The translations under genes and the position numbers were made by a program. Of a stretch of DNA of 45,937 bases, positions 1,230 through 13,702 are shown in pieces. Location of the stretch: positions 1 to 45,937 of the forward strand of contig JADGDM010000017.1 in the NCBI GenBank assembly GCA_016744905.1, in the 5' to 3' direction. Numbering within the stretch: the stretch's first letter is position 1; every line of letters begins with the position of its first letter. The notes below the pieces were generated by a model. The model had not been told where the DNA came from and searched no databases. It saw only the letters and a list, made by a program, of their open reading frames with translations. This stretch comes from Sulfurimonadaceae bacterium. GTDB taxonomy: Bacteria > Campylobacterota > Campylobacteria > Campylobacterales > Sulfurimonadaceae.

Positions 1230-1260
1230 AACAAACTGATTAAATATTAATCAGTTTGTT
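1230..1260 (-). terminator. Hairpin terminator overlapping the stop of the PAS-GGDEF-EAL gene
   Basis: There is a perfect 14-bp inverted repeat (1230-1243 with 1247-1260) with a 3-nt loop. It starts inside the last codons of the minus-strand gene and is followed on that strand by a T-rich stretch. The stem is AT-rich, so termination may be partial. Confidence 0.5.
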
Positions 1261-4200
1261 TAAGTCCATCGATTAATAGAGTCTTGAATGCATCTTCTGT
1301 TACAGGCTTGCTGTAGTAGTATCCTTGAATATTAGGACAGCCATTATTGAGTAAAAATTTTTTTTGTTCTTTTGTTTCAACGCCTTCAGCAATAATACGA
1401 AGATTTAAACTTTGAGCCAATGCAATGATGGCTTTGGCAATAGCCACATCTTCTTCATCATCTGGCAGGTCTTGAATAAAGGATTGATCAATTTTTAGTT
1501 TATTGATAGGCAACTTTTTGAGATAAGATAGCGATGAATAGCCTGTTCCAAAATCATCAATGGCCAACTCTATTCCCAGCGCGCTGACTTGATTTAGAAT
1601 TTCAATCGCTTCTTCAGGGTGAAGCATGATTTGACCCTCAGTGACTTCAAGTGCTATCCATTCGGCTTGACAGTGTGTCTCTTCTAATAGGGTTATTAAA
1701 ACGTCTAAAAAGTCTTTTTCTTGTAATTGTTTTATAGCAAGATTCATAGCCAGTTTACCAGGATTTAGTCCCTCTTTATACCATTGAACGAGCTGCGTCA
1801 TGGCGGTTTTCATGACAAATCTATCAAGTTCAATAATAAGTCCCGTACTCTCAGCGAGTGGGATGAACTTTGCAGGAGAGATGATACCCATACTTGGATG
1901 TTCCCATCTTACAAGAGCTTCCATTCCACAAATGAGCTCACTTTGCGCATCGACTTGTGCTTGATAAAATACAGTAAATTCACTATTTTCTAAGGCCTGT
2001 CTTAAACTGGCTTCCATAACAACACGCTCAAAAGCCAATTCTGTCATCTCAGAACTGTAAAATTGATAATTATTACGTCCTTCTTCTTTTGCCTTATACA
2101 TAGCCGCATCAGCGTATTTTAAAAGGTCTGTACTGACATGACCATCATTAGGATACAAAGAAATACCAATGCTTGAAGAGACATAGAGTAAATTATGATC
2201 AAGATTAATGCTTTGCGCTAAGGTGTCAAGAATCTGTGTTGCTATATTTGTTACTTCTTTTTGTGTTTTGGACTCAAGAATGACTGTGAATTCATCTCCA
2301 CCTAAACGTGAAAGAGTGGCATTTCTTGGAAGTACTTGTCTTAATCTGCTGGTTACAATTTTAAGAACCTCATCTCCTATCTCATGACCCAATGAGTCAT
2401 TAATCTCCTTGAAGTGATCAAGGTCTATAAAAAGCAGCGCCAGTTCTGTAGAGGATTCAATACTTTGAGTCAGCTTTTTACTAAATGAGATACGATTAGG
2501 CAATCCCGTGAGTGAATCATGATGGGCTTGATAATCAAGAATATTTTTCTGCTCACGTAAGGCATTTTGTGTTTTAAGATGAGAAGTGATATCTCTTGCA
2601 GATTCTATAATACCAATACAGTTTCTCTCTTTATCAAAAAGAGGCGTGGCGGAGAGCTCCACATAATGTTTCTCACCATCTATATTTTTGTGATTATGTA
2701 AGACAATGGTATGCTCTTTCGATGCTAAAACATCACGAAGAGGACAAGGATGCTCTATTCCATCACAAGGCGTAGATCTATGATGTGATATCTCATAACA
2801 CTTGGGATGAAGGGGGTCAGCGACTTGCGTGAATTCCATATTTTTATGCAAGGTATCATTCATTAATTCAATAGAGTAATCTTCTTTGATAACCATAATA
2901 GGGTCTTCTACCCCATCAATAATAGATTGAAGATAGGTATGTTGTTCTTTGAGGGCATCTTCAGCGCGTTTACGTTTAGTGATATCTTGAACGTAGCCAA
3001 CCATCCCTATAACTTCTTGATTGTTATCTTTAAGTGAAGAGAGTGAAAGATTGGCATCAATAATTTCTTTTGATTTTTTAATTAACCTAACAACGGTATG
3101 CACTTCACCCGTCTCATTTAAGGTCTCGATGTTGGTAGCTAAACTTTTTAAATCTTCAGGCAGATATATCTTACTGATGTGACTACCCAACATCTCTACC
3201 TCACTGTAGCCTAGAATCTGAGTAGAACCACTGTTCCAGCTGATAATAATACCTTCTAGGTCTGTTGAAATAACACTATCATGAATCTGTTCAATAATCT
3301 GCGTTTGTTGATTGGTTTTTAAAGTTTGAATACGCTCTTGTGTGATGTTGGTGTGGGTACCAACCATGCGTATTGGATTATTATCTTCATCATAAATAAT
3401 TTGTGCTTTTCCTAAAATCCAAATCCAATGACCCTCTTTATGTAGTAAACGATGGGTATGTTCAAAGTTCTTTGATTTTTCTTGCTTCGCTTTTTGCAGG
3501 GCACTGAATATTGAAGCTTTATCATCAGGATGAATACGTTCTTTCCATGTTCGGATTTGATTAGGAAGCTCTTCATCTAAATAGCCCAACATCTCCTTCC
3601 AAGAAGAAGAAAAATAAATATTGTTGTCTGCATAATCCCAATCAACAACTGAGGTATTACTACCATATAAAGCCAGTTGCGTTCTTGAGTTGAGTTTTTG
3701 AAGACGTTCTCTGCCAACTAATAGTTTTATAATAAGATACAGAAGTAAAAGAGAAAAGATAAATCCTATTATTCGGATATTACGCATATTTTTGAAGGTT
3801 GAAAGTATAAAGGGACTTTTTTCATAAGAGACCAGCCATGCGGCATTTTGTGTATAAAGGTTTTGAATAGGTAAAAAAGAGATGACCAGAGCTTCTGTAT
3901 CGCTGAGAATATAATGACTAAATGCTTGATTAGAATGTATATTATCATTCAAACTTTTTTGCAGAGGATCGAAAGAGAAGTTTTTATGCATAACACAGGT
4001 ATTTTTATTCATCGTGACCATATACTCAGTATGTTCTTCACTTTTCGCATACTTGAGTATTAAGTCATCTCTTTTCCATGCTTTTGCTGTAAATACATCT
4101 TTATTGACCAGAAAATGAGAATGAATATGGCTGATATTATTTAAATACCATTGAAAACTATCACTGGAAAAAGAGACTTCCATGGCGCCAATATGTTTGC

Positions 4201-4729
4201 CTGAACTGCTAAAAATAGGAAAAGTATTTCTAAATCCATGGGCGACTCTTCCTTGAACAAAACCACGAATGGGTTTGAGTGTTTCATTGACTATTTTAAA
4301 ATCATCACGTATATCTGTTAAGTCATCACCATAGCGGCTTGGTTTATGCATACGTAGAAAAGATTTGTTATCGGGAAAAACAAATTGAAACTGTAAAACA
4401 CCTTTTTGTTTGGCGCGGTCATATTTTAGTGTGAGTAACTCTATAAGCTCTTGTCGTAGTATCTTCTTCTCTTCAATACTTGAGTGATTGGCCTGTTCTA
4501 TGATGTCAATTAAGCGCTTAGAACTGATGGTTGATTGATAGGTAGTATTGGCCGTGATTTTTTGAGATTCAAGTAAAAGATTATAGTGTGTTTGAAGATT
4601 GTGCATATTTTGTTTAAGTGCTATATGGACTCTCTGTTCAGCATTTTTATTAGTGATGTAATAGATAGCACCATTGATTAAAAAAAATAGTGCGAGTATA
4701 TAGATGACGTATTTATTAATATTTTGCAT
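1247..4729 (-). CDS. Membrane sensor with PAS, GGDEF and EAL domains (c-di-GMP turnover)
   Basis: This 1160-residue protein probably makes or degrades cyclic di-GMP in response to a periplasmic and internal signal. An N-terminal membrane helix (about 7-26) and a second one (about 318-338) bracket a large periplasmic sensor region, likely Cache-like. Three PAS segments follow (roughly 350-475, 480-590 and 595-720; the first two end in PAC-like motifs). The GGDEF domain has an intact GGDEF at 810-814. The inhibitory RxxD site upstream is not intact (RNAT). The EAL domain has E937-A-L and the DDFGTGYSS metal motif at 1058, so the phosphodiesterase looks competent. No clear ribosome site precedes the ATG. 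Its position between the nitrate transporter and nitrate reductase genes suggests, but does not prove, a link to nitrate or redox state. Confidence 0.9.
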   Translation of the reverse strand: MQNINKYVIYILALFFLINGAIYYITNKNAEQRVHIALKQNMHNLQTHYNLLLESQKITANTTYQSTISSKRLIDIIEQANHSSIEEKKILRQELIELLTLKYDRAKQKGVLQFQFVFPDNKSFLRMHKPSRYGDDLTDIRDDFKIVNETLKPIRGFVQGRVAHGFRNTFPIFSSSGKHIGAMEVSFSSDSFQWYLNNISHIHSHFLVNKDVFTAKAWKRDDLILKYAKSEEHTEYMVTMNKNTCVMHKNFSFDPLQKSLNDNIHSNQAFSHYILSDTEALVISFLPIQNLYTQNAAWLVSYEKSPFILSTFKNMRNIRIIGFIFSLLLLYLIIKLLVGRERLQKLNSRTQLALYGSNTSVVDWDYADNNIYFSSSWKEMLGYLDEELPNQIRTWKERIHPDDKASIFSALQKAKQEKSKNFEHTHRLLHKEGHWIWILGKAQIIYDEDNNPIRMVGTHTNITQERIQTLKTNQQTQIIEQIHDSVISTDLEGIIISWNSGSTQILGYSEVEMLGSHISKIYLPEDLKSLATNIETLNETGEVHTVVRLIKKSKEIIDANLSLSSLKDNNQEVIGMVGYVQDITKRKRAEDALKEQHTYLQSIIDGVEDPIMVIKEDYSIELMNDTLHKNMEFTQVADPLHPKCYEISHHRSTPCDGIEHPCPLRDVLASKEHTIVLHNHKNIDGEKHYVELSATPLFDKERNCIGIIESARDITSHLKTQNALREQKNILDYQAHHDSLTGLPNRISFSKKLTQSIESSTELALLFIDLDHFKEINDSLGHEIGDEVLKIVTSRLRQVLPRNATLSRLGGDEFTVILESKTQKEVTNIATQILDTLAQSINLDHNLLYVSSSIGISLYPNDGHVSTDLLKYADAAMYKAKEEGRNNYQFYSSEMTELAFERVVMEASLRQALENSEFTVFYQAQVDAQSELICGMEALVRWEHPSMGIISPAKFIPLAESTGLIIELDRFVMKTAMTQLVQWYKEGLNPGKLAMNLAIKQLQEKDFLDVLITLLEETHCQAEWIALEVTEGQIMLHPEEAIEILNQVSALGIELAIDDFGTGYSSLSYLKKLPINKLKIDQSFIQDLPDDEEDVAIAKAIIALAQSLNLRIIAEGVETKEQKKFLLNNGCPNIQGYYYSKPVTEDAFKTLLIDGLKQTD

Positions 4730-4938: not shown

Positions 4939-6513
4939 GTGCAAACACCATTAGAAAGTTTTATCGATCATAAGGCCGAAACAGGCATGCAATGTGGTAA
5001 CTATTCCATAGACCTTCCTGAGTTACAAGATAAAGAGCAGTATCGTTTCCACTTTGATGCGACTGCTTGTGTGGGATGTCGTTGTTGTGAAGTAGCGTGT
5101 AATGAGCAAAACAATAATCCAGCTGATATTAAATGGCGCCGTGTAGGTGAGATGGAAGCGGGAGTATTTCCTAATGTGCTACAGATGTTTAATTCTATGT
5201 CTTGTAACCACTGTGTAGACCCTGCTTGTTTGATTGGCTGTCCGACGGAGTCATACATAAAGATAGATGAAACAGGTATTGTCGTGCATGATGATGATAC
5301 CTGTATCGGATGTCAGTACTGTACATGGAACTGTCCTTATGGGGTACCAACCTATCATGAAGAGCGTAATATTGTCACCAAGTGTCATATGTGTCATGAG
5401 CGTCTTGATGTGGGTGAAAGTCCAGCCTGTGTACAAGCATGTCCAGCAGGTGCTATTATGATAGAAGCGGTGAATGTAGATGCGTGGTTAGCCGGTGACA
5501 TTGATGAACAAGGAAATATGCCGCACTTGGTTGATGCACGTGTAACGAATTCCACAACGCGCTACACCATGAGCGATGCTCAACGCGTCGAGATGGAAAA
5601 TATGCAAAAGGCAGATGAGCATATCTTAAAACCTTTTCACGCCGAGATACCATTGGTATTTATGACAACTTTAACGCAGATCTCTTTAGGTGCTTTTATT
5701 GCACTGTTTTTAGGGGACCTATTTTCACTATTTGGTTTGAGTGAACCGAGCGTAATGATGGCCTTTTTAGTGATGATCCCTGCTGCGCTTGGTCTTCCTT
5801 TGAGCGCGCTACACTTAGGTCGTCCGATCTTAGCATTAACAGCTATGAAAAACTGGAAAAATTCGTGGCTCTCTCGTGAAGCGATTGCCTTGGGTGCTTT
5901 TACAGGAATGATGAGTATAAATGTACTGCTTTATTACCTAGAAGTAAGTCAGTTTTTGAGAATTATTTTTGAAGTTCTAACCCTGGGTATGGGTCTCTTT
6001 GGTATCTATGCCCAAGCGATGATTTACCGGATTAAGGCGCGTCCATCATGGAACCGTAGAACGACAAATATGAAGTTTTTCGGCGTGGCGTATGTGGGTC
6101 TTTTAATGATGGCCTTAGCCTCTGCTTCTGCGGGTATTAATGAAGCGGTTTCTCCACTACTTTCAGTGGCATTACTGAGTGCAATGGCGCAAGCATTTTT
6201 CTCATATGAAGACTTTAGAACCTTGGAAAATGCCAAAGAAGATGATTATGAACTGGGTAAAACAAAACGTCTTTATGCACGCTTTAGTAAGGTGCATTAT
6301 CTACGTAAAGGCAGCTTTGTGATCGGTGCGATTGTATTGCCACTGCTGGTTTCTGTCCTCTTTAGTGCAGGACTCATTAGCAGCGCGCTGTTATTTTTAA
6401 GTGCGGCTGTTTTACTCTCTTTTATCTCTGAACTTTCAGATAGATATCTATTTTATGTAACCTCTGTGCCTCTTTCCATGGCCGGTGGATTTTTTGTAGG
6501 AAACCAACGATGA
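4939..6513 (+). CDS. Fused DmsB/DmsC-like iron-sulfur and membrane-anchor subunit of a molybdenum oxidoreductase
   Basis: This 524-residue protein joins two parts that are usually separate. Residues 1-170 are a ferredoxin-like subunit with four cysteine groups (C44/47/50/54, C89/92/97/101, C122/125/128/132, C149/152/164/168), enough for four [4Fe-4S] clusters as in DmsB/NrfC. From about residue 235 to the end is a polytopic membrane region of the DmsC type, with about eight hydrophobic helices. It would pass electrons between the quinone pool and the catalytic subunit encoded next, whose ATG overlaps this stop by 4 nt (ATGA). There is no signal peptide, so the iron-sulfur part is probably cytoplasmic. 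The start is GTG, with an AAGAAGAG-like ribosome site. Pairing with nitrate reduction is inferred from the neighbour. Confidence 0.85.
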   Translation: MQTPLESFIDHKAETGMQCGNYSIDLPELQDKEQYRFHFDATACVGCRCCEVACNEQNNNPADIKWRRVGEMEAGVFPNVLQMFNSMSCNHCVDPACLIGCPTESYIKIDETGIVVHDDDTCIGCQYCTWNCPYGVPTYHEERNIVTKCHMCHERLDVGESPACVQACPAGAIMIEAVNVDAWLAGDIDEQGNMPHLVDARVTNSTTRYTMSDAQRVEMENMQKADEHILKPFHAEIPLVFMTTLTQISLGAFIALFLGDLFSLFGLSEPSVMMAFLVMIPAALGLPLSALHLGRPILALTAMKNWKNSWLSREAIALGAFTGMMSINVLLYYLEVSQFLRIIFEVLTLGMGLFGIYAQAMIYRIKARPSWNRRTTNMKFFGVAYVGLLMMALASASAGINEAVSPLLSVALLSAMAQAFFSYEDFRTLENAKEDDYELGKTKRLYARFSKVHYLRKGSFVIGAIVLPLLVSVLFSAGLISSALLFLSAAVLLSFISELSDRYLFYVTSVPLSMAGGFFVGNQR

Positions 6514-8807
6514 TTAATGCAGTAAAAAACTTTTTAGGCTTTGATATTAAAGCGGACAAATATAAACTCAGTAGTGATGCACAATTTGGAATGATTAGTG
6601 ATGCCAAAAAGCCTGATAAATGGGTCTTCTCTACCTGTGGTTATTGTGGGGTTGGATGTGGACTTTACATCGGTGTTAAAGATGGTAAGGCAGTCTATAC
6701 CAAAGGAAATCCTAAACATGATGTGAACATGGGAACATTGTGTCCAAAAGGATTGAGTGAACATCAACTCATTAACTCTAAAGATCGCATCTTGCATCCT
6801 ATGATCAAACGTGGGAGTGAACATGTAGCTGTTTCATGGGACAGCGCCTATAGAAAGGTGAGTGATACCTTCAAACGCATTGCGGATGAACATGGACCAA
6901 AAGCGGTAGGAGTACTCTCCTCAGGACAGCTTCTAACGGAGGAATTTTACACCCTTGGAAAGTTTGTGCAGTTGGGACTTAAAACCAATAATTATGATGG
7001 AAATACAACGCTATGTATGGCTTCAGCCGTGGTAGGTTACAAACAGTCTTTAGGGAGTGATGGTCCAACAAATTCGTATGAAGATTTTGAACATGCCAAC
7101 ACCATCATCTTAGTCGGTGCCAATATCGCTGATAATCATCCTATTTTAAAATTACATATTGCAAAAAATAAAAAAGTGGATAGAAAAATTATTGTTATTG
7201 ACCCACGTGCTTCTAAAACTTCAGCGATGGCAGACACGTATATCCCCATCAAACCACGTACGGATTTAGCACTTTATAATGGTTTGGCATATATTATTTT
7301 TGAGCAGGGTTGGGAAGATGAAACGTATCTGACTCAAAACGTGAATGGACTCAAAGAATTTAGAAAACATGTTCAAGACTATTCTCCTCAAGAAGTCAGT
7401 AATATTACAGGGATTGATGTAAAGGTTCTATATGAATTGGCGCGTAGGTATGTGACTACAGAAAATGCACTAACAGCGTGGACTATGGGTGTAAATCAAT
7501 CTTTTATGGGAACGGATACCGTCAGTGCCATCATTAACCTTCATCTGATTACGGGGAAAATTGGACGTCAAGGAAGTGGACCTTTTTCGATTACGGGACA
7601 ATGTAATGCCATGGGAACACGCGAGACAGGTTTTACCTCTTCTTTGCCATCATATAGAAATTTTGGAGATAAAAAAGCAGCGCAGGAGTACGCAGACATT
7701 ATCAATGTTCCCGTGGATATTATCCCAACTGAACGTGGATATAAATACGCAGAAATTATTGATGCGATAGATCGTGGTGAGATAAAAGCACTCTGGATTG
7801 TTGCGACAAATCCTCTGGTGAGTTTTGTGGATCAAGCTAAGCTGCGTAAAACACTGGCCAAGTTAGATCTTCTTGTTGTTCAAGATGCTTTTTATAGTGA
7901 TACAGCGCAAATTGCCGATGTCATCTTCGCAGCGGCTACTTGGGGTGAAAAAGAGGGTACGTACACCAATTCAGAACGCCGGGTAAATAGAGCAAATAAA
8001 GCAGTAGAACCGATAGAAGATACCAAAAGTGATTTTGATATTGTTACTGATTTCTCTCGTCATTTTCAAGGCGTTCATCATCAGCTATTTAGTGGATGGA
8101 CGAGTCCAAGTGATGCGTATGAAGAGATTAAACGTAGTTCTAAAGGACAACTTTGTGATCAATCTGGGATGAATTATGAGATGATGGAAGACAATGGCGG
8201 CGTACAGTGGCCATGTAATGATCAGTTCCCCCAAGGGAGCAAACGTCTTTACACACCAGATATCCCATTTAGAACACCTGATCAGCGCGCTAAGTTAATC
8301 ATCGCTGACTGGGTACCAATGGCGGAAGATCTTAGCGCGGAATTTCCAGTGATGCTTAATACTGGAAGAACGGTGGAACAGTGGCATACCCGTACTAAAA
8401 CACGTTCTATTGATATCTTAAATGATTTAGCCCCTGAAGCGTGGGTGGAGATAAATCCTGTAGACGCAGAATTTTTACAAGTGCACAGTGGTGATAGGTT
8501 AACATTGTCTTCTCCTAGAGGAGAGGTACCTGATGTTGTTGTTAGAGTAACGCAAAAAATGGCGCCGGGTCAAGTCTTTGTCCCTTTTCACTTTAATACA
8601 CAACTGGTGAACCAGCTCACGCAAGCCTCTTTTTGTCCAAAATCAGGAGAGCCAAATTATAAACAAACGGCCATTCAACTACACTCTGAAAAAGTGCCCT
8701 CAGGCATCATTATGAAAGAGGATGTGATTAGTGGGGCGATTGTACATAATAAAAGTACCTATGAAGGTGTGAAGATAAAAGAGACCAAAATGAGTACAAA
8801 AGTATAA
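6510..8807 (+). CDS. narB: Nitrate reductase catalytic subunit, NasA/NarB type (molybdopterin)
   Basis: This 765-residue protein of the molybdopterin oxidoreductase family probably reduces nitrate to nitrite. Near the N-terminus, C43, C46, C50 and C78 form the [4Fe-4S] motif. LCMASA around C169 gives the cysteine expected as molybdenum ligand in NasA/NapA enzymes. The motif GPFSITGQCNAMGTRE and the C-terminal PFHFNTQ..NQLT region are typical of assimilatory NasA/NarB. No twin-arginine leader is present, so the enzyme is cytoplasmic, unlike NapA. It is translationally coupled to the DmsBC-like subunit, which replaces the usual NADH- or ferredoxin-linked partner. Substrate assignment rests on family motifs and the nearby narK-like gene; another cytoplasmic Mo enzyme of this branch (for example formate dehydrogenase-like) is less likely because the key residue is cysteine, not selenocysteine, and the context is nitrate. 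Confidence 0.82.
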   Translation: MINAVKNFLGFDIKADKYKLSSDAQFGMISDAKKPDKWVFSTCGYCGVGCGLYIGVKDGKAVYTKGNPKHDVNMGTLCPKGLSEHQLINSKDRILHPMIKRGSEHVAVSWDSAYRKVSDTFKRIADEHGPKAVGVLSSGQLLTEEFYTLGKFVQLGLKTNNYDGNTTLCMASAVVGYKQSLGSDGPTNSYEDFEHANTIILVGANIADNHPILKLHIAKNKKVDRKIIVIDPRASKTSAMADTYIPIKPRTDLALYNGLAYIIFEQGWEDETYLTQNVNGLKEFRKHVQDYSPQEVSNITGIDVKVLYELARRYVTTENALTAWTMGVNQSFMGTDTVSAIINLHLITGKIGRQGSGPFSITGQCNAMGTRETGFTSSLPSYRNFGDKKAAQEYADIINVPVDIIPTERGYKYAEIIDAIDRGEIKALWIVATNPLVSFVDQAKLRKTLAKLDLLVVQDAFYSDTAQIADVIFAAATWGEKEGTYTNSERRVNRANKAVEPIEDTKSDFDIVTDFSRHFQGVHHQLFSGWTSPSDAYEEIKRSSKGQLCDQSGMNYEMMEDNGGVQWPCNDQFPQGSKRLYTPDIPFRTPDQRAKLIIADWVPMAEDLSAEFPVMLNTGRTVEQWHTRTKTRSIDILNDLAPEAWVEINPVDAEFLQVHSGDRLTLSSPRGEVPDVVVRVTQKMAPGQVFVPFHFNTQLVNQLTQASFCPKSGEPNYKQTAIQLHSEKVPSGIIMKEDVISGAIVHNKSTYEGVKIKETKMSTKV

Positions 8808-8867: not shown

Positions 8868-10109
8868 ATGAAAAAAGTATTGGTTATTGAAGACAATAGA
8901 ACAATTTTAAAACTTGAACAGACTAAAATTGAGTCTGAACTTCATCTGGAAGTGACCCCTTGTGAAACTTTGGCCGCTGCACTCGCAGCAATAGAAAAAG
9001 AGACATTCTTCTGTGCCTTAGTTGATCTTACTCTGCCTGATGCCAAAGACTTAGAAGTGGTTCAAGCACTGGACAAATATGATATTCCTATGATTGTATT
9101 TACGGGTTCTATCGATAAAAAACTTCGAGAAGATGTATTAAAATTTAATGTGATGGATTATATTCTAAAAGACAATCCCAGTAGCTTAGATTATGCACTG
9201 CGTATTATCAGGTTTTTAGACAACAGTGAAGGATGTTCTTTGCTGGTCGTAGATGATTCTGCTACTTCAAGAATGGGTTTAGTGATGTCGCTAGAACGTC
9301 TACATATGAATGTCTATCAAGCTTCTAATGGTGACGAAGCACTGGACATAATTAAAAATCATGATGATATTATGATGATGATTACGGATAATTTTATGCC
9401 AGGTATGGATGGGGATGAGTTGGTTCGTAAGGTACGCGCTAAAAAAAGTATTAATGATTTTGGAATTATTGGTGTCTCTGGCAGTTCCGATCATGAAATC
9501 ACCCTAGGATTTTTAAAATCTGGTGCCAATGACTTTATCCAAAAACCAATCTATCCTGAAGAGTTGTTTACCCGTGTGGTCTCAAATATTGAGATGATAC
9601 ATAATATAAAAATAGCCAAAGAGAGTGCAACAAGAGATTATTTAACGCAGTTGCATAACCGCATGTATCTTTTTGAATTGGGTGATAAGTATTATGAAAA
9701 TGCAAAACGTAGACATCTAAATCTTGTAGTAGCGATGCTCGATATTGATCATTTTAAAAAGATCAATGATCGTTATGGTCATCACGCGGGTGATGTGGCA
9801 CTTAAAGAAGTAGCGCAAGTACTTTTAGATAATGTTCGTGGTACAGATGTTGTAGCGCGCTATGGTGGAGAAGAGTTCTGTATAGTTTTGAGCAATACCT
9901 CCTTAGCAGATGGACTAAAAGTTCTCGATAAAATTAGAGTAAAAATCTCTGAAATCAAGATCAAACTTAAAACAATTGAGTTCTCTTTTACGATGTCTAT
10001 AGGGGCAACAGATAAATTGGTAGGTTCTTTGGATAAGATGATAGACCACGCAGATAAAGGTCTATATCAGGCAAAAGATGAGGGACGAGATAGAGTTGTT
10101 GCTATCTAA
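8868..10109 (+). CDS. Response regulator with two receiver domains and a GGDEF output
   Basis: This 413-residue soluble protein probably synthesises cyclic di-GMP when phosphorylated. The first receiver (about 1-118) keeps the acidic pair E7-D8 and the phosphorylatable D53. The second (about 122-240) keeps the aspartate pair (VVDD) and D174 in TDNFMPGMDG, with the K of QKP near its end. The GGDEF domain (about 250-413) has an intact GGEEF at 333-337. An RxxD product-inhibition site (R324-G-T-D327) lies exactly five residues upstream, so feedback inhibition is expected. This layout is like PleD and similar regulators. No sensor kinase is encoded nearby. The ribosome site is weak (GGTG close to the ATG). 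Confidence 0.92.
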   Translation: MKKVLVIEDNRTILKLEQTKIESELHLEVTPCETLAAALAAIEKETFFCALVDLTLPDAKDLEVVQALDKYDIPMIVFTGSIDKKLREDVLKFNVMDYILKDNPSSLDYALRIIRFLDNSEGCSLLVVDDSATSRMGLVMSLERLHMNVYQASNGDEALDIIKNHDDIMMMITDNFMPGMDGDELVRKVRAKKSINDFGIIGVSGSSDHEITLGFLKSGANDFIQKPIYPEELFTRVVSNIEMIHNIKIAKESATRDYLTQLHNRMYLFELGDKYYENAKRRHLNLVVAMLDIDHFKKINDRYGHHAGDVALKEVAQVLLDNVRGTDVVARYGGEEFCIVLSNTSLADGLKVLDKIRVKISEIKIKLKTIEFSFTMSIGATDKLVGSLDKMIDHADKGLYQAKDEGRDRVVAI

Positions 10110-12104: not shown

Positions 12105-12169
12105 CTCTATGATGTTCCTTCAAGTATAAGAAAATCTTTTATATGATGGAGTAAAGAAGTGGAGTGAAT

Positions 12170-13702
12170 ATGAAAAACAATATCTTATTATCTACAGTAT
12201 TATTAACTACCTTAGCTACCCCATCCCTCAATGCAACAATGTTTGATGACTTTAATGAAGTAAAGAAAATTGTTAATGATCTTCAGCTTGAAGTGACAGA
12301 ACTGCGTGAAGAGAATGTTGAATTGTCCAAAGAACTAGAAAGTATCTCTGGAAACAACTCTCTAGAAACAGAGCTTGAAGAGGATGAGGAAGAAGAGAGT
12401 GATCTTCGTGAAGATATGGAGGAAATGCAAGAGGAAATCTCTGAGCTGAATCAGCAGACCTCAGGAGACAACCTTAAACTTTCCGTAGACTTTAGAACTT
12501 CATTAGATAACCTTCAGTACAAAATGACAGATGGAAGTAGCGTAAAAAATAGTGCGCTCATGATTAATCGTCTTTGGTTGAATATGAGCTATAAAGCCAA
12601 TGAAAATGTCAGCTTCACAGGACAGTTGGCCTATAACAAAGCTTTTGGAGCAAGATCTACAGGTGCCAATCCTGTTGGTTTCGAAACCTTTGATTGGATT
12701 ACCAATGAAAATGCTTATGATGATATTGTGCGTGTACGATCGGCTTACTTTTACTACGTTAATGATACATTTTTAAGTCTTGATATTCCATGGACTTTTA
12801 GTATTGGACGTCGCCCTTCAACCGGCGGACATCTGATAAATTTTCGTGAAGATGATGCTGCCGCATCGCCAAGTGGCCACAGTATAAATGTAGAGTTTGA
12901 TGGCTTAAGTTCAAAGTTTACACTCAATGAAGAGTGGGGAACTTATCTGAAATTTTGTGCAGGGCGTGGATACTCAAATGCACAACCACGCTTTTCAGCT
13001 ACGCCTTACGCCACAGCAGACGACACTTCAAATATTGACTTGGGTGGTCTGATTTTTGTCCCTTACAGTGATGGGCAGTATCAACTTTTTACACAGTTTT
13101 ATTATGCCAACAACTTAATAGATGCGGGTCCTGAAAATCCAAGTGACGCTAGCACAATGGATCCTTCAGGATTTCATACAGTGGGTGGACTCTCTTCTGC
13201 TACGATGGCTTTAATTGTTGCGGGTATTGGAAATGAGTGGTCTGATTACTTAGATGAGACGACGCTCTTTCTAAGTGCGGCTGCATCGTATACAAACCCC
13301 AATAGTGGATCAACGATGTTGGGTTCAGCTGATGAGGAACTGGGTATATCTGTTTGGGTAGGTTTAAATATGCCATCTTTAGTCAGTGATGAAGGTTTTT
13401 GGGGTTTAGAATATAATGCAGGTTCAAAATATTGGAGATCTATTACCTACGCAGAAGATACCAACATCGGTTCTAAAATTGCGGCGCGTGGAGATGCCTA
13501 TGAGATCTATTTTACGGAGCCTTTGGTTGAAGATTCATTAAGTATGCAACTGCGCGCTACGTATATTGATTATAGATACACTGGAAGCAATGGCTTTTTT
13601 GGATCAAATACAGGAACACCTGTAGAGATAGCGACTTTAAATAGTCCTGCAGTTGTACAGAGTGCAAGTGATGTACGTTTTTATATTCGTTATAAATACT
13701 AA
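12170..13702 (+). CDS. Outer-membrane protein, DUF3373-like
   Basis: This secreted protein of 510 residues (from ATG 12170) has a signal peptide (MKNNILLST... cut after about residue 22), then an acidic coiled-coil segment (about 30-100, rich in Glu and Leu). The rest is a large beta-rich region with alternating residues that ends in an aromatic-type strand (FYIRYKY), as in outer-membrane barrels. The coiled coil plus barrel and the region around INRLWLNMSYKANENVSFTGQ fit the DUF3373 family seen in Campylobacterota; function is unknown, perhaps a porin. The GGAG site favours ATG 12170 over the GTG two codons upstream. Confidence 0.75.
   Translation: MKNNILLSTVLLTTLATPSLNATMFDDFNEVKKIVNDLQLEVTELREENVELSKELESISGNNSLETELEEDEEEESDLREDMEEMQEEISELNQQTSGDNLKLSVDFRTSLDNLQYKMTDGSSVKNSALMINRLWLNMSYKANENVSFTGQLAYNKAFGARSTGANPVGFETFDWITNENAYDDIVRVRSAYFYYVNDTFLSLDIPWTFSIGRRPSTGGHLINFREDDAAASPSGHSINVEFDGLSSKFTLNEEWGTYLKFCAGRGYSNAQPRFSATPYATADDTSNIDLGGLIFVPYSDGQYQLFTQFYYANNLIDAGPENPSDASTMDPSGFHTVGGLSSATMALIVAGIGNEWSDYLDETTLFLSAAASYTNPNSGSTMLGSADEELGISVWVGLNMPSLVSDEGFWGLEYNAGSKYWRSITYAEDTNIGSKIAARGDAYEIYFTEPLVEDSLSMQLRATYIDYRYTGSNGFFGSNTGTPVEIATLNSPAVVQSASDVRFYIRYKY

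Follow-up and report, generated by a model that had tools for sequence, protein, structure and literature searches.

A fused DmsB-DmsC protein and a Nas-clade molybdoenzyme: a probable menaquinol-linked assimilatory nitrate reductase of Campylobacterota

A pair of overlapping genes of a Sulfurimonadaceae bacterium (GenBank assembly GCA_016744905.1) encodes a protein in which a DmsB-like and a DmsC-like module are fused, followed by a molybdoenzyme of the Nas/Nap clade. This paper describes the composition, relationships, predicted membrane orientation and gene context of the two products, designated BC (the fused DmsB-DmsC gene product) and A (the catalytic molybdoenzyme subunit), in a stretch of 45,937 nucleotides (nt) of contig JADGDM010000017.1, referred to below as the window. 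An earlier interpretation made from the letters of this DNA, here called the sequence-only reading, had listed the two open reading frames and their overlap of 4 nt (6510-6513), and both were recovered at the same coordinates. The features concerned are:

4939-6513, + strand: BC, fused DmsB-DmsC protein, predicted electron-transfer and quinone-anchor subunit; 524 amino acids (aa), GTG start
5068-5442, + strand: four [4Fe-4S] cluster motifs in the DmsB-like domain (BC residues 44-168), with 16 invariant Cys
5641-6468, + strand: DmsC-like eight-helix membrane domain (BC residues 235-510), PsrC/ActC/CydA fold
5812-5814, + strand: His292 of BC, equivalent of E. coli DmsC His65, putative menaquinol site; invariant in 54 sequences
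5878-5880, + strand: Glu314 of BC, equivalent of E. coli DmsC Glu87, putative menaquinol binding; invariant in 54 sequences
6510-8807, + strand: A, predicted catalytic nitrate reductase subunit with molybdenum bis(molybdopterin guanine dinucleotide) (Mo-bisMGD), Nas/Nap clade; 765 aa, ATG start
6636-6743, + strand: N-terminal [4Fe-4S] site of A, Cys43, Cys46, Cys50 and Cys78
7014-7016, + strand: Cys169 of A in the Nas/Nap-type motif TTLCMASAV, predicted to bind Mo; the next residue is Met, where most formate dehydrogenases have His

Composition of the BC and A proteins

In BC, the Pfam domains Fer4_11 (residues 83-175) and DmsC (residues 235-506, 80.4 bits) were recognized, and the cysteines of the four clusters (44, 47, 50 and 54; 89, 92, 97 and 101; 122, 125, 128 and 132; 149, 152, 164 and 168) were all conserved in 54/54 homologues. 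By its sequence, BC thus appears to have the cluster and anchor composition of a molybdoenzyme partner. Profile comparison aligned E. coli DmsC to the membrane half of BC from the N-terminus of DmsC onward, indicating that the fusion point is clean, and a Pfam scan detected no NarI-like domain in BC or A. Two residues of the membrane half coincide with positions of E. coli DmsC, of which His65 is taken here to be a menaquinol-site residue. The other, Glu87, has been reported to be important for menaquinol binding (Geijer and Weiner 2004, as cited in PMC6303296).

A structure model of BC based on 55 sequences (predicted local distance difference test, pLDDT, 79.8; predicted template modeling score, pTM, 0.83) replaced an earlier 21-sequence model in which the Fe-S domain was poor (mean pLDDT 64.8). 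Its membrane half resembles ActC (Z 23.5, 274 residues, 2.9 Å) and menaquinone-bound PsrC (Z 21.1, 245 residues, 3.0 Å), and its N-terminal half matches ArrB, PcrB and other four-cluster subunits. Together, the conserved quinol-site residues and the fold support the quinol linkage that the sequence-only reading had proposed and that BC would provide.

The A protein contains the Pfam domains Molybdop_Fe4S4, Molybdopterin and Molydop_binding. Its cluster ligands and Cys169 are invariant (18/18 A proteins), as is the surrounding motif TTLCMASAV, of which CMASA represents the NapA/NasA pattern, whereas most formate dehydrogenases show Cys/Sec-His at this place and the others Cys-Gln. In agreement with the sequence-only reading, neither subunit carries a twin-arginine translocation (Tat) signal; a search for the twin-arginine (RR) motif in 21 BC and 18 A proteins returned none, in contrast to NapA of the same genome, the N-terminus of which reads MSLDRRDFLKSS. 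Between the upstream in-frame stop and the GTG of BC there are just four codons (K R R D) and no start codon, and therefore no signal peptide is hidden upstream. A periplasmic enzyme exported by means of such a hidden Tat signal is ruled out by these four codons and by the lack of the RR motif in the homologues.

Relationships of A and its co-inheritance with BC

The phylogeny of A was determined with IQ-TREE for 40 proteins (LG+C20+F+G4), using reference names as annotated and no SoeA; the reference from S. meliloti pSymB is presumably the same NarB that PMC6616083 deals with. The A proteins formed a clade of their own (100/100, starred) within a clade of Nas, Nap and A (98/94, starred), in which NapA is a separate 100/100 clade. 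The assignment of A to a NasA/NarB-type branch in the sequence-only reading was thereby borne out, and a place among the formate dehydrogenases, the outcome that it had named as contradicting this assignment, was not obtained, since these enzymes fell outside the clade. That A is itself a formate dehydrogenase is rejected by the tree and the active site, despite the best score in profile searches discussed below.

The group nearest to the A clade consists of NasA proteins of Halomonas, Deinococcus and Streptomyces (90/97, unstarred). At these loci (L088, L089 and L173), the active-site motif is CTATAA or CTSTAA, not CMASAV, and the genes next to NasA encode proteins of approximately 165-180 aa that are HPP family members or hypothetical, not BC.

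Co-inheritance of the two genes was assessed in a phylum sample of 298 Campylobacterota genomes. Full-length BC (56-72% identity) was present in 32 of these, a recurrence of the fusion well above what chance would give, and A likewise in 32, with both at full length in 31, and no clean case of BC without A or of A without BC was encountered among the 298. In the single genome with BC only (G208), BC lies at the contig edge where A would be located. As neither gene occurs without the other except in contig-edge or damaged cases, BC is probably not a mere neighbor of A, and the view that it is functionally unlinked to A is rejected by this co-occurrence, for which the Fisher test (p 3e-42) ignores kinship and is descriptive only. 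The pairing of the anchor with another enzyme, which had been raised as a second possible objection, was likewise not encountered beyond the contig-edge case. BC and A are adjacent on one strand in 22 of the 32 genomes that contain the two. Judged by linkage, the co-inherited partner of A is BC, which is its candidate electron donor.

The damaged case concerns genome G292 (G292:C29:156989-159959), in which A is intact and only a C-terminal piece of BC (residues 302-524) with an in-frame stop is present; either the gene is truly disrupted in this genome or the assembly is faulty here.

A scan of genome contigs revealed at least 80 named loci with a fused BC among 336 relatives. The 80 loci listed belong to Sulfurimonas, Sulfuricurvum, Sulfurovum and allied families, and every title that gives a taxon points to Campylobacterota, two loci being titled only 'bacterium'. 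The expectation that a related arrangement occurs in Sulfurimonas relatives was thus confirmed, and cytoplasmic Nas has been tabulated for two species (PMC4584964). The plasmid collection held no record covering at least 80% of the fused BC, which leaves spread by mobile elements unsupported in that collection.

Membrane orientation and nitrate-assimilation gene context

The orientation of the membrane domain was predicted from the distribution of positively charged residues, for which loops 2-3, 4-5 and 6-7 of the eight helices and the C-terminus were counted as the side of the Fe-S domain. In all 54 BC sequences (54/54), Lys and Arg are concentrated on the Fe-S side (10-18, mean 14.5) versus the far side (0-5, mean 1.5), and the first 21 sequences gave 15.6 versus 1.7. 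Tat-exported DmsC controls were reversed (E. coli 3 versus 7, Vibrio 2 versus 9, Citrobacter 4 versus 9), and the Azospirillum SoeC control, a protein taken as SoeC on the basis of its DmsC/YnfH annotation and its neighbor xsc, displayed the same pattern as BC (14 versus 0). Combined with the positive-inside rule, this bias would place the Fe-S domain of BC in the cytoplasm and invert the anchor relative to DmsABC. The Fe-S domain and the active site are therefore predicted to face the cytoplasm, opposite to E. coli DmsC and similar to the SoeC type, and the charge distribution adds to the missing signal peptide in support of the cytoplasmic active site that had been suggested earlier. Among NrfD-like subunits, SoeC has been singled out as an exception that is inverted, its family being held to face the cytoplasm (PMC8076601), and BC would represent the second candidate for an inverted NrfD/DmsC anchor.

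At the edge of the window lies a further gene of relevance:

2-1120, - strand: NarK-family nitrate/nitrite transporter, truncated at the end of the contig; a conserved member of the nas cluster in relatives

Clustering of the neighbors at 30 homologous loci identified three recurrent neighbors of BC and A, namely a transporter of the NarK family, a fusion of PP2C phosphatase and Ser/Thr kinase, and a NirA-like ferredoxin-nitrite reductase. Several relatives also have an ammonium transporter close by, and some a 112-aa protein near the cluster that is GlnB-like by size and place. Among the 80 named loci, many of which are short, A was within reach in 63, NarK in 51, NirA in 44 and the kinase in 37. 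Genome-wide, NirA was found in 50/298 genomes and in 32/33 genomes with A or BC. The same set of functions is encoded by an annotated nas operon on a Comamonadaceae plasmid, which comprises a major facilitator superfamily transporter, a bifunctional kinase/phosphatase, nirBD and a nitrate reductase. The presence of NarK, NirA and the PP2C/kinase fusion in relatives marks the cluster as one for nitrate assimilation, and nitrogen assimilation is the likely role of BC and A. The sequence-only reading had advised a search for nirA or nirB nearby, which had a divided outcome: no nirA is present in the window, and the nirA of this genome lies on contig C76, its product being 60% identical to NirA of the cluster in relatives; the NarK-family gene is present at the window edge.

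In a separate group of 18 sampled Campylobacterota genomes (e.g., G116, G126 and G186), NirA occurs without A or BC, which suggests that these bacteria assimilate nitrite that is either produced by periplasmic Nap or taken up from outside. The PP2C phosphatase-Ser/Thr kinase fusion (e.g., L038:4303-5949) is kept beside NarK, also in the Comamonadaceae nas operon.

Proposed mechanism, known systems and flanking genes

With considerable confidence, the gene pair is interpreted as a two-gene, three-module assimilatory menaquinol:nitrate reductase whose active site faces the cytoplasm and whose nitrite would pass to ferredoxin-dependent NirA. From their sequences, we infer that A and BC form a complex, with menaquinol as the donor and nitrate as the substrate. 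Nitrate would enter through the linked NarK-type transporter, and menaquinol would be oxidized in the DmsC-like domain, near the membrane face that bears the Fe-S domain. Electrons could then run through the DmsB-like domain with its four [4Fe-4S] clusters, and next through the single [4Fe-4S] site of A, to Mo-bisMGD, where nitrate would be reduced to nitrite in the cytoplasm. As quinol protons would be released and the protons of nitrate reduction consumed on the same (N) side, the reaction would be electroneutral and non-energy-conserving, which would fit assimilation.

Several observations weigh against this interpretation. In the tree, Nas is not a single clade and the sister grouping of A is unstarred. 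The top NCBIfam model for A is that of the formate dehydrogenase alpha subunit (585 bits, cut-off 666), and the NasC model scores 507 bits versus a cut-off of 1100, the latter indicating that A is divergent from canonical NasC. All A proteins (18/18) have Thr two residues before the Mo-ligand Cys (7008-7016, residues 167-169), a position occupied by Arg in the Nas and Nap references and in most formate dehydrogenase references; this exchange possibly represents a lineage-specific tuning of the active site. BC and A are 1.4-49 kb apart in 5 genomes and on different contigs in 5 others, and in the window genome NirA is unlinked (C76), without the kinase gene in its vicinity.

The profile scores, together with a formate dehydrogenase as the best sequence match of A in the PDB, could be taken to mean that A is a formate dehydrogenase or another oxidoreductase from which BC passes electrons to quinone, i.e., a cytoplasmic formate:quinone oxidoreductase. 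This explanation is highly improbable in view of the grouping with Nas and Nap (98/94), a Cys-Met rather than Cys-His active site and neighbors that belong to nitrate assimilation. With the formate dehydrogenase model best yet below its cut-off and NasC far below, automatic naming of A is unstable, and annotation pipelines blur its identity. The incomplete adjacency of the genes, the position of A in the Nas/Nap clade and the ferredoxin type of the nitrite reductase in the cluster would all suit a canonical ferredoxin-dependent NarB, with BC as an unrelated or accessory quinone-linked neighbor. Even where they are kilobases apart, however, BC and A are co-inherited without true exception in 298 genomes, and the cluster and anchor make-up of BC is that of a molybdoenzyme partner, which makes such a NarB improbable.

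A role in respiration or redox balancing is equally improbable; a cytoplasm-facing menaquinol:nitrate reductase would then serve for electron disposal or provide nitrite for respiration. The plan of a catalytic, a four-cluster and a quinone-anchor module is indeed that of respiratory complexes, but with the orientation predicted here the reaction would be electroneutral, the context consists of NarK and assimilatory NirA, joined in several relatives by a nearby ammonium transporter, and Nap is carried for respiration (own NapA; PMC4584964).

The assimilatory quinol-linked enzyme proposed here combines traits of several known systems. DmsABC shares the DmsB-like four-cluster module and a DmsC-like anchor with the H65 and E87 positions, whereas here the B and C parts are fused, the catalytic subunit belongs to the Nas clade and not to DmsA, a Tat signal is lacking and the anchor is predicted to be inverted. 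SoeABC resembles BC/A in its predicted inverted anchor, in having the catalytic and Fe-S modules at the N side and in the charge pattern of Azospirillum SoeC, but is encoded by three separate genes, and SoeA oxidizes sulfite with electrons passing to quinone, unlike the Nas-type A. Nap and Nar likewise reduce nitrate at the expense of the quinol pool. NarGHI belongs to a different catalytic clade and has a b-type cytochrome anchor, and Nap is periplasmic, carries a Tat signal and uses another electron chain (own NapA), whereas A is without Tat signal and outside the NapA clade.

Like NasA, NasC and NarB, A has a Cys ligand, belongs to the Nas/Nap clade, is predicted to be cytoplasmic, lacks a Tat signal and is associated with NarK, a nitrite reductase and the PP2C/kinase gene. 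The donors known for these enzymes are ferredoxin, a flavoprotein (Flp), and NADH via NasB or NasG (PMC4724949), whereas the partner here is the four-cluster quinone-anchor protein BC. As the canonical Nas donor and subunit features are absent, the BC/A pair is classed as a Nas-clade catalytic subunit that would act in the way of a quinol-linked complex. According to a family survey from 2020, members of the Nas/Nap/AioA/cytoplasmic formate dehydrogenase clade never occur with canonical four-cluster or membrane-anchor subunits (PMC7331816), to which the BC/A lineage is an exception. Nitrate-assimilation genes of Sulfurimonas have been recorded without a BC-type architecture (PMC4584964, PMC7952632, PMC5401914), with nasAB listed as a nitrate transporter in one comparative study (PMC7952632), and no description of a BC-type electron donor was found in the open-licence literature, which mostly excludes subscription papers. 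By its description, the narB-ttrB-nrfD trio of cave Thiovulum (PMC9938260) is similar in that narB may share an operon of three genes with those for a protein of the four-cluster type and an NrfD anchor, but differs in its separate genes, its NrfD annotation and its interpretation as polysulfide reductase.

It is likely that a separate, widespread campylobacterotal branch of the Nas clade recruited an upside-down fused DmsBC to form a menaquinol:nitrate oxidoreductase that works wholly on the cytoplasmic side. The quinone pool would then supply the first two electrons for nitrate assimilation, ferredoxin and NADH would be spared, and the enzyme would be the first one described from the Nas/Nap/Aio/cytoplasmic formate dehydrogenase group with canonical four-cluster and anchor subunits. 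Sulfur-oxidizing Campylobacterota such as Sulfurimonas thus appear to assimilate nitrate by a quinol-fed enzyme rather than with ferredoxin or NADH. Because menaquinol easily drives the reduction of nitrate to nitrite, scarce low-potential reductant would be kept for NirA and CO2 fixation, which may explain how chemolithoautotrophs at vents and seeps meet the cost of assimilating nitrate. The conserved BC/A lineage also illustrates that modules can be re-paired.

Genes related to cyclic di-GMP flank BC and A in the window, encoding PAS-GGDEF-EAL (1247-4729, - strand) and double-receiver-GGDEF (8868-10109, + strand) proteins, and a GGDEF-EAL-type gene is located directly upstream of BC in two relatives (L038 and L067) as well. 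Further downstream (12164-13702, + strand), a DUF3373 protein (372 bits) is encoded, probably an outer-membrane protein.

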